This document shows, piece after piece, positions 52,151 through 59,882 of a stretch of DNA of 64,000 nt. Origin of the DNA: Deltaproteobacteria bacterium (GTDB lineage Bacteria; Myxococcota_A; UBA9160; UBA6930); the NCBI GenBank assembly GCA_029261795.1, contig JAJDAP010000122.1:1-64000 (forward strand), given 5' to 3'. Numbering within the stretch: the stretch's first letter is position 1; each line of letters opens with the position of its first letter. The notes under the pieces were generated by a model that worked only from the letters and a program-made list of their open reading frames with translations, searched no databases and was not told the origin of the DNA. A program made the translations under genes and the position numbers.

Positions 52151-53605
52151 CTAGGCCCGCCGCACGGGTGGCCCGGTTCCCTCGACCAGTGCGAGCACTT
52201 CGGCGAATCCGTCCTCGAGGCAGCGCCCGAACAGGTCGGGATCCGTGACGGCGGCGCGGTCGACGTTGGCGGCGATACAGCAGATGTCGCCGTGGGTGAC
52301 GAGCGTGATCATCGTGGCACAGCCCGGCAGGGGGCCAAAGCCGTAGACGCGCTCGATGCGCGCACCGGCGATGAAGCGCTCCTCCCGGTAGCCCGGGACG
52401 TTGCTGGCCTGGAGATCGTTCGACTGGGTGAGGCCGCCGGAAAGCGCACTCACGAGCGGCGCCGGAAGGCGCGTGAGGGCAGGGGCGACCAGCGCCATCG
52501 CGTCGATGGCCACTTCGCCGCGCGCCGATCGCACCAACTTGCCGATCGCCTTCATTCGCTCTTCGGGGTCGCGGATCGCCACCGGTGCCGCCAGGCGTGC
52601 GCCCGCGAACTTGTTGCCGCCGGCGGCATCGTCTTCCTTGCGCACCGAGATCGGAATCGCGATCGGGATCGTCTCTACCGGCTCGCCCAGCTTCTCATGG
52701 TAGAGCCGGAATCCGCCTAACAGTGCCGCCAGGAACGCGTCGTTCAGGCTCGAGTCGGCTTGCTTCGCGGCAGCGCGGAGGTCCGGGAAGCGCACGTCGA
52801 GCGCCAGGAAGCGCCAGGACAGGCTGCGGTTGCGCAGCAGCGGGGAACTCTCGGCTTCGGGTGTTCCAATCACCCGGCCCAACGACGATGCGAAGCGAGC
52901 GATCTCCTGAGCCGTATCGACGGGATTCATCAGCCCACGCAACAGGCTGCCGGCATTCTCCCAGATGTCGCCGGAGGAGGCGCGCGCTCGGCGGCTCAGC
53001 TGGTCGGTCAGGACATCTTCCGGTGTGACCCACTCGGGCTGCGGCGCCGCCGGCTGGGGTTTGTCCGCCTGATGCTCGCGTGTCTTCGAGTGCAGCTGCG
53101 AGAACAGCTGGAAGCTGCCCAGCCCGTCGGTCGTCGAGTGGTGCATCTTCAGCAGTTGGGCGCCACGCCCATCCGGGAGGCCCTCGAATAGCACCGTCTC
53201 CCACGGCGAGCGGGCGCGATCGAACGGCGTCATCGCGAGCTGCTCGGCATTCGAAAGCAGCTCCTGCCAGCCCCCGTCGCCGCTCAGCCGCACGCGCCGC
53301 ACGTGGTAGTGCAGGTCGAAGTCGGGGTCGTTCACCCAGCGCGGGTAACCGATCCCGAGGGTCGGCTCGACCACCTTCTGGCGGAAGCGTGGTGCCATGC
53401 GCGTGCTCCACTCGCAGGCTGCAACGAAGCGCTCCCATTCCGGGACACAATCGAGGATCGAGAGGGAGCAGATCGTCGAGCGCAGGTGCGGGTCGCTTTC
53501 GGCCCGCCACATCAACGTCTCGAGTGCGTTCATCTCGCGACTGCGACCCCAATCCAGAGGCTCGTCCCGGCCGATACGGGAACTCGCGGTTCGCTCTTCC
53601 GACAT
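52151..53605 (-). CDS. Wax ester synthase/diacylglycerol acyltransferase (WS/DGAT)
   Basis: The 484-residue enzyme starts at ATG 53605. LKMHHSTTDGLGSFQLFSQL carries the active-site HHxxxDG. The C-terminal domain has NDAFLAALLGGFRLYHEK, ISVRKEDDAAGGNKFAG and SNVPGYREE, the last like the SNVPGP motif. Such enzymes join acyl-CoA with a fatty alcohol or diacylglycerol to make neutral lipids at the membrane surface. The TetR gene lies 61 bases upstream on the same strand, and the AlkB-type hydroxylase is divergent, so the three look like one lipid module. Confidence 0.93.
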   Translation of the reverse strand: MSEERTASSRIGRDEPLDWGRSREMNALETLMWRAESDPHLRSTICSLSILDCVPEWERFVAACEWSTRMAPRFRQKVVEPTLGIGYPRWVNDPDFDLHYHVRRVRLSGDGGWQELLSNAEQLAMTPFDRARSPWETVLFEGLPDGRGAQLLKMHHSTTDGLGSFQLFSQLHSKTREHQADKPQPAAPQPEWVTPEDVLTDQLSRRARASSGDIWENAGSLLRGLMNPVDTAQEIARFASSLGRVIGTPEAESSPLLRNRSLSWRFLALDVRFPDLRAAAKQADSSLNDAFLAALLGGFRLYHEKLGEPVETIPIAIPISVRKEDDAAGGNKFAGARLAAPVAIRDPEERMKAIGKLVRSARGEVAIDAMALVAPALTRLPAPLVSALSGGLTQSNDLQASNVPGYREERFIAGARIERVYGFGPLPGCATMITLVTHGDICCIAANVDRAAVTDPDLFGRCLEDGFAEVLALVEGTGPPVRRA

Positions 53606-53666
53606 GGCAGTTCCTCCTGCGACCCCCCTCCGATCCCATGGTGCCACAGGCGGCGGCGATTTCCGG

Positions 53667-54317
53667 CTAGCGGTCGGTCGTCTCGGAAGGGGCCAGCAAC
53701 GTGAGCAGTGCATCCCGGGTGCGCCCAACATCCATCGGGAGTCCGAGATCCGCCGCACTCAGCACCCCGAGGGCAGCCAGGAGCAGGAGGTTCGCGATCT
53801 CCCGGGCGCCGACCTGCGCCGCTCGGCCCGTTCGCTCGGCCACCGCGACGGACTCTTCGAGCCGACCTCGTGCCATGCCGAGCGCGTCACGCAGGGTCTC
53901 TGCAATCCGGGGATTGCGGTGGGCGGCGGCCATCAAGGTGTCGAAGCGTTGCCCTGGGCCGGGGGGCGTGGCAGCGGCTGGATCGTTCCAGACCAGTGAG
54001 GCCAACTCCGCATAGCGCCGGATCGTGTCGGCCAGGCCACCTTCCTGCTCGGCCCCGGCCAGCAGCACATCGACGAAATCGCGCAGGGTGTGGTCGACCA
54101 CCGCCTCGACCAGTTCCTCGCGGCTCCGGAAGTGCACGTAGAAGGCGCCCCGGGTAAAACCGGCGCGTTCGCAGATGGCGTCGAGACTGGGTCCGTCGAG
54201 CCCGTCGGCACTGAAGGCTTCACGGGCGGCGAGGATCAGCCGATGACGGGTCTCCTGCTTGGCCTCCTGCCTGCGCGCGGCGCCGGAGGGGATCTCGGGG
54301 GTGGCTCGGGCGGGCAT
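53667..54317 (-). CDS. TetR-family repressor of lipid module
   Basis: The 216-residue protein starts at ATG 54317. ETRHRLILAAREAFSADGL and GPSLDAICERAGFTRGAFYVHF form the DNA-binding domain. The rest is the ligand and dimer domain (about residues 70-216). No ribosome site precedes the ATG. A -35/-10 pair (TTGATT, 17 bp, TATGTC, minus strand) lies only six bases before it, so a leaderless transcript is likely. Two inverted repeats ACATAC-N6-GTATGT lie just upstream. It should repress itself with WS/DGAT and the divergent AlkB gene; an acyl-CoA or alcohol ligand is plausible. Confidence 0.9.
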   Translation of the reverse strand: MPARATPEIPSGAARRQEAKQETRHRLILAAREAFSADGLDGPSLDAICERAGFTRGAFYVHFRSREELVEAVVDHTLRDFVDVLLAGAEQEGGLADTIRRYAELASLVWNDPAAATPPGPGQRFDTLMAAAHRNPRIAETLRDALGMARGRLEESVAVAERTGRAAQVGAREIANLLLLAALGVLSAADLGLPMDVGRTRDALLTLLAPSETTDR

Positions 54318-54321
54318 GTGA

Positions 54322-54374
54322 TTGACATACCGAGTCGTATGTGGATAATCAAGTGACATACGATCTCGTATGTC
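54322..54374. promoter_or_regulatory. Two TetR operators over divergent promoters
   Basis: Site 1 is ACATAC-CGAGTC-GTATGT at 54325-54342. Site 2 is ACATAC-GATCTC-GTATGT at 54356-54373, extended to nine-base arms (54355-54374). The sites repeat at 31 bp, three turns of DNA. A plus-strand promoter is TTGACA (54322-54327), 16 bp, GATAAT (54344-54349), with its start near 54356 inside site 2. A minus-strand promoter is TTGATT (54352-54347), 17 bp, TATGTC (54329-54324). The arrangement suits one repressor controlling both sides. Confidence 0.8.
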
Positions 54375-54441
54375 GGCTCGGCCAACTCGAACGCGCGCTG
54401 CGATTGCGCGCGCGAGGCAGACGAGCCAGGAGAGGCGAGCG

Positions 54442-55581
54442 ATGAGCACAGCGATGGCCCCTTCGGCCGCCCCTTCCGAGCATGCGCCCGCTGGGCGCGG
54501 GCTTCTCGCGATCGTCGGGCGCCACCTGCTGTCGCTGTACTTCCCGCTCGTTGCGACCGTGTTCCTGCTGACGGGCCCCCATCCGTGGTGGGGCGCCTTG
54601 CTCTTCATGCTTCCCCTCGACCTGGCGTTTCGCTTCGATCGCCGAGCCCGGGCCGAAGCGCGGCAACCTCGCGCCGATCTCCCAGCATGGCCATTCGACG
54701 CCCTGGTCTACCTCCTGGCTGCCCTGCAGTTCCTGAACGTCGCGCTGTTGGCGCGCATGTACATCGATGTGTCCTGGCTCTCGCTCGATCTCTTGATGGC
54801 TGCCGTGGTCGTCGGCGGTAGCTCGGGATTCTCGATCATCACGGCCCATGAGCTGATTCATCGGCGCGGCCGCATCGAGCAGTGGCTCGGTCGCTTGTTG
54901 TTATGCACGGTGTTGTACGAACACTTCTACACCGAACATCTCCGGGGGCATCACGTCCGGGTGGGCACGCCCGAAGATCCCGCTACCGCACGCTTCGGCG
55001 AGACCTTCCGTCAATTCTATGCACGCACGGTACCGGCCCAGTTCCGCAGTGCCTGGGCGCTCGAGAAGAAGCGCCTGGGCGATCCGGAGATGCGTCTTCT
55101 CGACCCGCGCATGTTGCGAAATCGCATCGTCCACGGGATCGCCATCGGCTGGGGGCTAGCCGCTGCCATCCTCGTCCTTGCGGGCCCCGTCGCCTTCGCC
55201 GCGTTCCTGATCCAGGCCCTGATGGCATCGCGCTTGTTGGAAGTCGTCAACTATTTCGAGCACTGGGGGCTGGTCCGCGCCCACAAGAAGGTGCGCCCCC
55301 AGGATTCCTGGGACACGCACAGCGCATTCACCTACTACGGTCTGGTCGGACTCTCCCGCCACGCCGATCATCACGCCTACGCGGCGCGCCCCTACCAACA
55401 GCTCCGTGTCTGGGAGGAGCCGCCGATCCTGCCGAGTGGTTATGTGGCCACGATCGCGATGGTGCTCCTGGCGAACCGCCGATACTGCGAGTACGCCACC
55501 GAAGAGCTCCGCCGGCGCGAACTCGGGCCCTTCGTCGTGCCCCCGGCCGGGACGGCGCTGGCACCGCAGGCCGTCGGCTGA
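54442..55581 (+). CDS. AlkB/XylM-family diiron membrane hydroxylase
   Basis: The 379-residue membrane protein starts at ATG 54442 after AGGAGAGG. Four to six hydrophobic segments lie near residues 22-62, 78-122 and 230-265. The His clusters of membrane diiron enzymes are present: HELIHRR, EHLRGHH, NYFEHWGL and LSRHADHHAYAARPY. The order and the NYxEH-GL box match alkane hydroxylases and xylene monooxygenase rather than desaturases. It would hydroxylate a terminal methyl and needs rubredoxin or a similar partner, not found here. It is divergent from TetR and WS/DGAT. Confidence 0.93.
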   Translation: MSTAMAPSAAPSEHAPAGRGLLAIVGRHLLSLYFPLVATVFLLTGPHPWWGALLFMLPLDLAFRFDRRARAEARQPRADLPAWPFDALVYLLAALQFLNVALLARMYIDVSWLSLDLLMAAVVVGGSSGFSIITAHELIHRRGRIEQWLGRLLLCTVLYEHFYTEHLRGHHVRVGTPEDPATARFGETFRQFYARTVPAQFRSAWALEKKRLGDPEMRLLDPRMLRNRIVHGIAIGWGLAAAILVLAGPVAFAAFLIQALMASRLLEVVNYFEHWGLVRAHKKVRPQDSWDTHSAFTYYGLVGLSRHADHHAYAARPYQQLRVWEEPPILPSGYVATIAMVLLANRRYCEYATEELRRRELGPFVVPPAGTALAPQAVG

Positions 55582-57761: not shown

Positions 57762-59882
57762 ATGTACCGCGACCTGCTCTCCCCTACCCGCATCGGAAGC
57801 GTCGAACTGCGCAACCGGATCGCCATGGCGCCGATGGGGGTCGAGATCGCCGAGGCAGATGGCAAGGTGCGCGAGCCGTTGGTCCGCTACTACGAAGAAC
57901 GCGCCAGGGGTGGCGTGGGTCTCATCATCACCGAGAACACCGCCGCCATGTACCCGCGCGGCGCGAACTCGGCCCACGAGATCGCGGTCTCCGACGAGGC
58001 GTATCTGCCCGGACTCTCGGAACTGACGGCTGCCGTGCACCGCCACGGCACGAAGATCGCCATCCAGCTGGCGCACCATGGCAAGGTCGGGCGTCTCGAC
58101 ACGGTGCAGGGCCGCGAGATCTGGATGCCGTCGCTACCGCGTGGCCACGCCGGGCCTACGGGCCCCCTCGACTTGACCCGCGAGGAGCTGGGCCTGATGG
58201 CGAAGGCGGCCGGAGGCGGGAAGCCGACGATCCGGGAGATGACGACCGAGGATCTCCGCGAACTCACCGCCGGTTTTGCGAGCGCGGCCGCGCTCGCCAA
58301 GCGAGCCGGCTTCGACGCCGTCGAACTGCATGCGGCGCACGGCTACATCTTCTCCGAGTTCCTTTCGCCGGCCTGGAATCTCAGGGCCGACGAGTACGGC
58401 GGGCCGGTCGAGAATCGGGCGCGCCTGTTATGTGAGGTACTGCGCGCCTGCAAGGATCGCGTCGGAACGGACTTTCCGGTCTGGTGCCGCCTGGACGCGG
58501 TCGAGTTCGGGACGCCCGACGGGATCACCCTCGAGGATGCGAAGCGCACGGCCGAACTCGCCGACGCGGCGGGCGCCGACGCGATTTCGGTCTCGGCCTA
58601 CGCCAATCCACTCGGCGCCGGATTCACTGACGGCCCGATCGTCCACGAGCCAGGTCGCTATGCGTCGTTCGCGGCCGAGATCAAGGCCCGCGTCTCCGTA
58701 CCCGTGATCGTGGCTGGGCGAATCGAGCCCGAAGTCGGAGATCGGCTGATTCGTGAGGGCGGGGCAGACGTCATCGCGATGGGTCGCAAGCTGCTGGCCG
58801 ATCCAGAGCTTCCCGCGAAGCTGGCCGCCGACCGGGAGCATCACGTACGGCCATGCATCTATTGTTATGTCTGTGTCGCGCAGCCGTTCTTCGATCGCCG
58901 GGTCAAGTGCGCCGTGAATCCCCTTCTCGCTCGCGAAGCCGAGCTGGCCGACCTGCTGCGCGAGCCGACATCCGAGCCACGCAAGGTGCTCGTCGTCGGC
59001 GGCGGGCCCGCCGGGATGGAGGCGGCCCGTGTCGCAGCACTTCGAGGCCACACCGTGACGCTCTGCGAGAAGGGGGCTCAGCTCGGTGGAACGCTGCGCT
59101 TCGCGGCGCTGCCCTACGAGCCGAACGAACGACTCTTGCGATGGTTCGAGGCGCAGCTCCAGGCGCTGCCCGTCGAAATACGCCTCAATAGCGAGGTCAG
59201 TGATGCGACCGTGCGCGAAATTGCGCCCGACGTCGTGATCGCGGCCGTCGGCGCAACCCGCGCGAGACCCGAGATTCCCGGCATCGATTCGGCGCACGTT
59301 CTCGACGGCGACGATCTGCGAGATCTGCTCACCGGTGCTGCGGGTTCGCGCGGTGCTCCTGCGCTCTCGCTCTTCGCTCGCGTCGCCATCGGCGTCGGAC
59401 GTCTGCTCGGGATCACACGAGACCCGGCGCTGCTGCGCACGGCGTCGAAGCTCTACATGCCCGTCGGGCGGCGGGTGGCCGTCGTCGGCGGCGGCCTCGT
59501 GGGGATCGAATTCGCCGAGTTCCTGGCCGAACGCGGTCGCGAGGTTGCGGTGCTCGACGAGGCAGCGGTGATGGCTCCCGAGATGGCACATCCGCGCCGC
59601 TGGCGGGTGCTTCACGAGCTACGCGAGCGGGGCGTTCGCCTGGTCGGGGGCGCCGAGATCCTCGAGATCGGAAGCAGCGCCGTCCGCTTCCGCGCGGATG
59701 GTGGCGAACACGAGGTTGCCGCCGACACGGTCGTCGTCGCGACTGGACTCGAGGCGAACCCGGCCGCCATCGAACGAATTCGCGCCGGCGGCGTTTCCGT
59801 GATCCCGATCGGGGACGCCAAGGGCGTGGGGTACATCGAGGGTGCGATCCACGACGGCTTCCGAGCGGCACTCGAGCTGTAG
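57762..59882 (+). CDS. FadH-like NADH:flavin oxidoreductase (OYE + FAD/NAD domains)
   Basis: The 706-residue protein starts at ATG 57762. Residues 1-340 form an old-yellow-enzyme barrel with FMN (IQLAHHGKVGR, AAHGYIFSEFLSPAWNLR, MGRKLLADP). A [4Fe-4S] site follows in PCIYCYVC and KCAVNP. From about residue 405, VLVVGGGPAGMEAARVAAL is the FAD motif. A second dinucleotide motif is VAVVGGGLVGIEFAEFL near residue 570. It resembles 2,4-dienoyl-CoA reductase and trimethylamine dehydrogenase. It moves hydride from NAD(P)H through FAD and the cluster to FMN. The substrate may be a 2,4-dienoyl-CoA or an enone. Confidence 0.92.
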   Translation: MYRDLLSPTRIGSVELRNRIAMAPMGVEIAEADGKVREPLVRYYEERARGGVGLIITENTAAMYPRGANSAHEIAVSDEAYLPGLSELTAAVHRHGTKIAIQLAHHGKVGRLDTVQGREIWMPSLPRGHAGPTGPLDLTREELGLMAKAAGGGKPTIREMTTEDLRELTAGFASAAALAKRAGFDAVELHAAHGYIFSEFLSPAWNLRADEYGGPVENRARLLCEVLRACKDRVGTDFPVWCRLDAVEFGTPDGITLEDAKRTAELADAAGADAISVSAYANPLGAGFTDGPIVHEPGRYASFAAEIKARVSVPVIVAGRIEPEVGDRLIREGGADVIAMGRKLLADPELPAKLAADREHHVRPCIYCYVCVAQPFFDRRVKCAVNPLLAREAELADLLREPTSEPRKVLVVGGGPAGMEAARVAALRGHTVTLCEKGAQLGGTLRFAALPYEPNERLLRWFEAQLQALPVEIRLNSEVSDATVREIAPDVVIAAVGATRARPEIPGIDSAHVLDGDDLRDLLTGAAGSRGAPALSLFARVAIGVGRLLGITRDPALLRTASKLYMPVGRRVAVVGGGLVGIEFAEFLAERGREVAVLDEAAVMAPEMAHPRRWRVLHELRERGVRLVGGAEILEIGSSAVRFRADGGEHEVAADTVVVATGLEANPAAIERIRAGGVSVIPIGDAKGVGYIEGAIHDGFRAALEL

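Follow-up and report, generated by a model that had tools for sequence, protein, structure and literature searches.

We describe a TetR-family regulator and two predicted operators that very likely form a local, divergent repressor switch for one AlkB-type hydroxylase gene. Phylogenetic footprinting, based on sequence comparison, strongly supports this TetR/tandem-operator/AlkB switch. The region lies in a window of 64,000 nucleotides, which is the whole stretch of DNA analyzed here, and contains the following features.

52151-53605, minus strand: WS/DGAT acyltransferase, 484 aa (Pfam WS_DGAT_cat and WS_DGAT_C; HHSTTDG motif)
53667-54317, minus strand: TetR-family regulator, 216 aa (Pfam TetR_N)
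54322-54349, plus strand: alkB promoter, TTGACA (54322-54327), N16, GATAAT (54344-54349), a sigma-70-like pattern match
54324-54352, minus strand: putative tetR promoter read from the sequence, TTGATT (54352-54347), N17, TATGTC (54329-54324)
54325-54342: operator 1 (tetR-proximal), ACATACCGAGTCGTATGT, exact ACATAC-N6-GTATGT
54356-54373: operator 2, ACATACGATCTCGTATGT, exact ACATAC-N6-GTATGT
54442-55581, plus strand: AlkB-type membrane di-iron monooxygenase, 379 aa (Pfam PF00487)

The WS/DGAT and tetR genes are co-directional and the AlkB-type gene is divergent, as originally predicted, and the gene identities are backed by Pfam. The tetR gene starts at the ATG at 54317, not at the start of the long upstream open reading frame, and the WS/DGAT gene follows 61 bp downstream of it. 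Elsewhere in the window, positions 57762-59882 (plus strand) encode a large OYE-type flavoenzyme that resembles the BaiCD and mycofactocin OYE families, with an apparent short-chain dehydrogenase gene upstream.

Predicted operators and overlapping promoters

The gap between tetR and alkB contains two exact copies of ACATAC-N6-GTATGT with a start-to-start distance of 31 bp, a pattern for which 0.28 chance matches are expected in the window when up to two mismatches are allowed. The placement is the one claimed in the original prediction, with one site on the -35 element of alkB and the other on its predicted start point. Operator 1 shares the final ACA of the -35 TTGACA and occupies the spacer, and operator 2 spans the predicted start point, from +1 to about +18. 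TTGACA-N16-GATAAT is the sole sigma-70-like site in 2.2 kb (11/12 matches; 0.2 expected). On the opposite strand, the putative -10 element of tetR is also covered by operator 1. Across loci, the tetR start codon is mostly 7-9 nt from operator 1, leaving no room for a ribosome-binding site, and we infer that tetR transcription starts at the ATG, which would give a leaderless mRNA. About half of the alkB-type loci retain the sequence AATCAAG (CTTGATT on the other strand) in the spacer between the operators, where it may act both in the alkB -10 region and, on the opposite strand, as the tetR -35 element.

Conservation of the operator pair

Within the order of the source genome, AlkB was found in 40 of 79 genomes (E<=1e-60), and 42 of 43 alkB places were inspected. 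The operator pair is present at 10/10 alkB loci with a visible divergent tetR ortholog, some copies having 1-2 mismatches, versus 0/31 alkB loci without tetR; one of the latter (L021) has a single one-mismatch site. The hypergeometric p value is ~1e-9 if the loci are independent, and the true figure is weaker because the loci are related. The nearest relative (G073, 78% AlkB identity) has an exact operator pair, at which its contig ends.

Beyond the order, 84,980 species genomes across GTDB were scanned for pairs of such palindromes separated by 8-20 bp. The tandem pattern was found in 73 stretches, whereas we estimate from the count of fixed bases a chance expectation far below one. Many of these stretches adjoin orthologous tetR genes (30-46% identity) in Myxococcota and Gammaproteobacteria; we examined 31 ortholog-linked loci, which include a few near-duplicates and related strains. 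In all 31, the bases TTG directly precede the tetR-proximal operator, forming TTGACA; the -35 box is thus fused to the operator. The operators start 31-33 bp apart in 29 loci, mostly 31-32 bp, with the two exceptions at 29 or 37 bp. The refined consensus of these loci is ACATAC[G/C]-N4-CGTATGT. The TTG is absent at the ACATAC tandem sites of more distant TetRs, in Magnetococcales and others. The two sites are therefore conserved next to homologous genes, the point on which the original prediction had staked its refutation, and the local TetR-AlkB switch is well supported by this conservation.

The scan also returned loci of other kinds. Some genomes have two or three tandem operators (L050, L060, and L102 in one Myxococcales MAG; L072 and L108; L084 and L101), which suggests larger regulons there; the operator of L060 precedes an acetoacetate decarboxylase-like gene. 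L101 and L084 both come under a record titled Klebsiella pneumoniae MAG, and since the alkB and tetR genes of L101 are Myxococcota-like, the species label looks wrong. In a UBA9160 contig (L074/L112), the tetR frame no longer matches its homologs over the C-terminal half, which points to a frameshift or an assembly error. Tandem ACATACCTTGAGGTATGY-like sites lie between two small divergent genes in Marinicella, Lysobacterales, Bacteriovorax, and others (L038, L045, L047, L048, L057, L059, L062-L064, L088, L098, and L099; one gene in L063 is PNPOx-like), and probably belong to a different regulator family. A separate system is seen in Rhodobacteraceae (L056, L097, and L105), where ACATACA-N4-TGTATGT-like pairs with a spacing of about 26 bp separate a possible TetR gene from a gene whose product starts with MNRAFTNI.

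A scan of the source genome for further operators, as proposed with the original prediction, found no third copy of ACATAC-N6-GTATGT at 0-1 mismatch (5.74 Mb, 91% complete). At two mismatches, there are 14 further places versus 9 for a reversed-pattern control, which is near background. We therefore reject a wider regulon in this genome.

The AlkB-type enzyme

The best PDB matches of the AlkB-type protein are the alkane 1-monooxygenases 8f6t and 8sbb, aligned over 275-300 residues, and the histidine motifs shared with them (HExxH, EHxxGHH, NYxEHxG, and RHxDHH) are all present. The protein differs from these enzymes in the HYG signature, having NYFEHWGL for NYxEHYGL; the tryptophan occurs in nearly all homologs of the clade and tyrosine in three. 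It also differs in rubredoxin, as none was found, either fused or encoded: PF00301 has no match in the source genome (91% complete) or in 75 of the 79 genomes of the order. The enzyme may therefore use a different electron donor or catalyze a different reaction. We name the gene product AlkB-type and treat alkane hydroxylation as putative. The AlkBs without tetR and operators group in one clade (L006, L008-L026, L028, L029, and L145), and most of them are longer at the C terminus by a hydrophobic stretch of ~100 residues. A ferredoxin or rubredoxin fused to these longer proteins was considered and rejected, as the extension is hydrophobic and has no cysteine-rich motif.

Proposed switch and alternative explanations

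The regulator has a clear TetR_N helix-turn-helix (51 bits for PF00440, whose cut-off is 24), and its recognition helix TRGAFYVHF is conserved in 25 homologs. Its AlphaFold model (pLDDT 90) has nine helices in an all-helical two-domain fold. A fold search gave 332 PDB matches at E<=0.001, and among the matches listed all are TetR-family proteins. These Foldseek matches are generic TetRs (GusR, MexL, SmeT, FadR, EthR, and NemR), none of them close; the search among PDB entries found no close relative with a known ligand, and structural analogy was rejected as a route to the ligand.

In the switch that we propose, a TetR dimer would bind the two ACATACS-N4-CGTATGT operators. Occupied operators would exclude RNA polymerase from alkB, because operator 1 runs into the -35 box and takes up the spacer and operator 2 covers the start point. 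The likely tetR promoter also lies under operator 1, which predicts autorepression of tetR. The repressor may then be released, and alkB turned on, by a hydrophobic compound that is either a substrate or a product of the oxidation (an alkane, alcohol, fatty acid, or acyl-CoA); the sensing of a lipid intermediate, part of the original prediction, is plausible by analogy with AlkX (see Discussion). Some TetR-family proteins act as activators, and TetR could instead activate alkB, or operator 2 could be the only site that matters, with operator 1 a promoter-embedded coincidence. However, the two sites are both conserved and the distance between them hardly varies, and in every locus operator 1 lies across the -35 box, where a repressor would be expected to bind. 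We consider activation or coincidence highly improbable.

The divergent gene facing the regulator is usually alkB in Myxococcota-type genomes, including Minicystis rosea. In Marinobacter and Oleispira, the related TetR faces an FMO-like monooxygenase gene followed by a patatin gene; in HdN1, Moraxellaceae, Salinisphaerales, Kofleriaceae, and others, it faces a short-chain dehydrogenase (SDR) gene, and in Labilithrix a gene for a 3beta-HSD/epimerase-like enzyme. The TetR clades track the type of target gene, and the regulator therefore travels with one divergent gene of the lipid-oxidation type. This family of TetRs may sense a compound shared by several routes of lipid or ketone oxidation, AlkB being one interchangeable target. 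The shared operator architecture facing such different enzymes and the agreement between TetR clade and target type are consistent with a common signal, but the same agreement means that ligand specificity may have changed with the target, and we regard this explanation as close to an even call, leaning slightly against it. More tentatively still, the loci could represent an undescribed TetR subfamily of Myxococcota and Gammaproteobacteria that responds to one class of hydrophobic signals, with exchangeable lipid-oxidizing targets (AlkB, FMO, and SDR), an AlkB that is rubredoxin-free in the order, and one fixed cis-architecture. This architecture would consist of a -35 box fused to operator 1, operator 2 at the start point ~31-32 bp further on, and a back-to-back leaderless tetR.

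The original prediction held that one switch links hydroxylation to storage. The hydroxylation part, TetR-AlkB with conserved operators, is well supported, but the storage part is not, as the WS/DGAT gene adjoins tetR in the source genome alone. The WS/DGAT protein has both WS_DGAT domains and the HHxxxDG motif (HHSTTDG), and scores 301 bits against NCBIfam TIGR02946, just under the cut-off of 310. Coupling would require tetR and WS/DGAT to form one operon, released from repression at the same time as alkB; the alcohols or acids produced by AlkB would then go into storage as wax esters or triacylglycerols. The shared strand and the 61-bp gap are consistent with it, the operator region would govern a tetR-WS/DGAT transcript, and the two enzymes could act in sequence. 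However, in nine other genomes of the order, the close ortholog of this WS/DGAT (62-70% identity) has no tetR, alkB, or operators nearby; one of these genomes is the operator-bearing G073. No relative of WS/DGAT was found at the other tandem-site loci, for which flanks of up to ~8 kb were inspected. Genes following tetR in other genomes are varied or convergent. Moreover, the source genome encodes five further WS/DGATs besides the tetR-adjacent one, and has no further operator. From the locations of its orthologs and the tandem-site loci as a whole, we reject the view that the module includes WS/DGAT as a conserved component. We therefore consider storage coupling unlikely and not supported, although it would have been the system's most surprising feature. 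WS/DGAT is probably a lineage-specific neighbor outside the conserved TetR-AlkB switch, possibly co-transcribed with tetR in the source genome.

Discussion

TetR repression of alkB is already known from AlkX and AlkU, and the version with a divergent tetR and an operator pair is new. AlkX of Dietzia and Mycobacterium tuberculosis represses alkB-rubA-rubB and binds the alkB promoter, and palmitic acid reduces the DNA binding of the Dietzia protein (PMC9430723). Like the regulator described here, Dietzia AlkX belongs to the TetR family and is encoded close to an AlkB hydroxylase gene, and it is the nearest functional analogue. In gene order, however, alkX follows alkB-rubAB in the same direction, whereas here tetR is divergent, rub genes are absent, and both operators sit inside divergent promoters that overlap. 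AlkU of Rhodococcus jostii RHA1 is a TetR repressor that binds upstream of alkB, in a promoter with two inverted repeats, GATTTacAAATC and ACAAATcTtcAtATTTGT (PMC6921075). The association of a TetR gene with alkB and the two inverted repeats in the promoter are shared with our system, in which the operators are predicted. The AlkU repeats, however, are unlike ACATACS-N4-CGTATGT, and alkU lies within an alkB-rubA1-rubA2-rubB operon, in contrast to the divergent tetR without rub genes.

AcuR of Rhodobacter sphaeroides is a TetR repressor whose operator overlaps its own promoter (-35 TTGATT) and whose mRNA is leaderless; together with TetR of Tn1721, it provides a precedent for autorepression and a leaderless mRNA (PMC3017554). 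AcuR was ruled out as the same system by its different operator, TAATAGAC-N6-GTCTATTA, and it further differs in its co-directional operon and acrylate inducer. PA3973 was ruled out as a match, as its 13-bp motif is unrelated. In our literature search, we recognized no paper with an ACATAC-N6-GTATGT operator beside a TetR gene, which is not proof of absence.

These results supply a regulator, an operator consensus, and a target set for AlkB-type hydroxylases of largely uncultured Myxococcota-related lineages, and flag AlkB clades without rubredoxin. The same switch is predicted for FMO and SDR genes of marine bacteria, e.g., Marinobacter and Oleispira. The compact repressor/promoter pair may also serve as a sensor of hydrophobic compounds.
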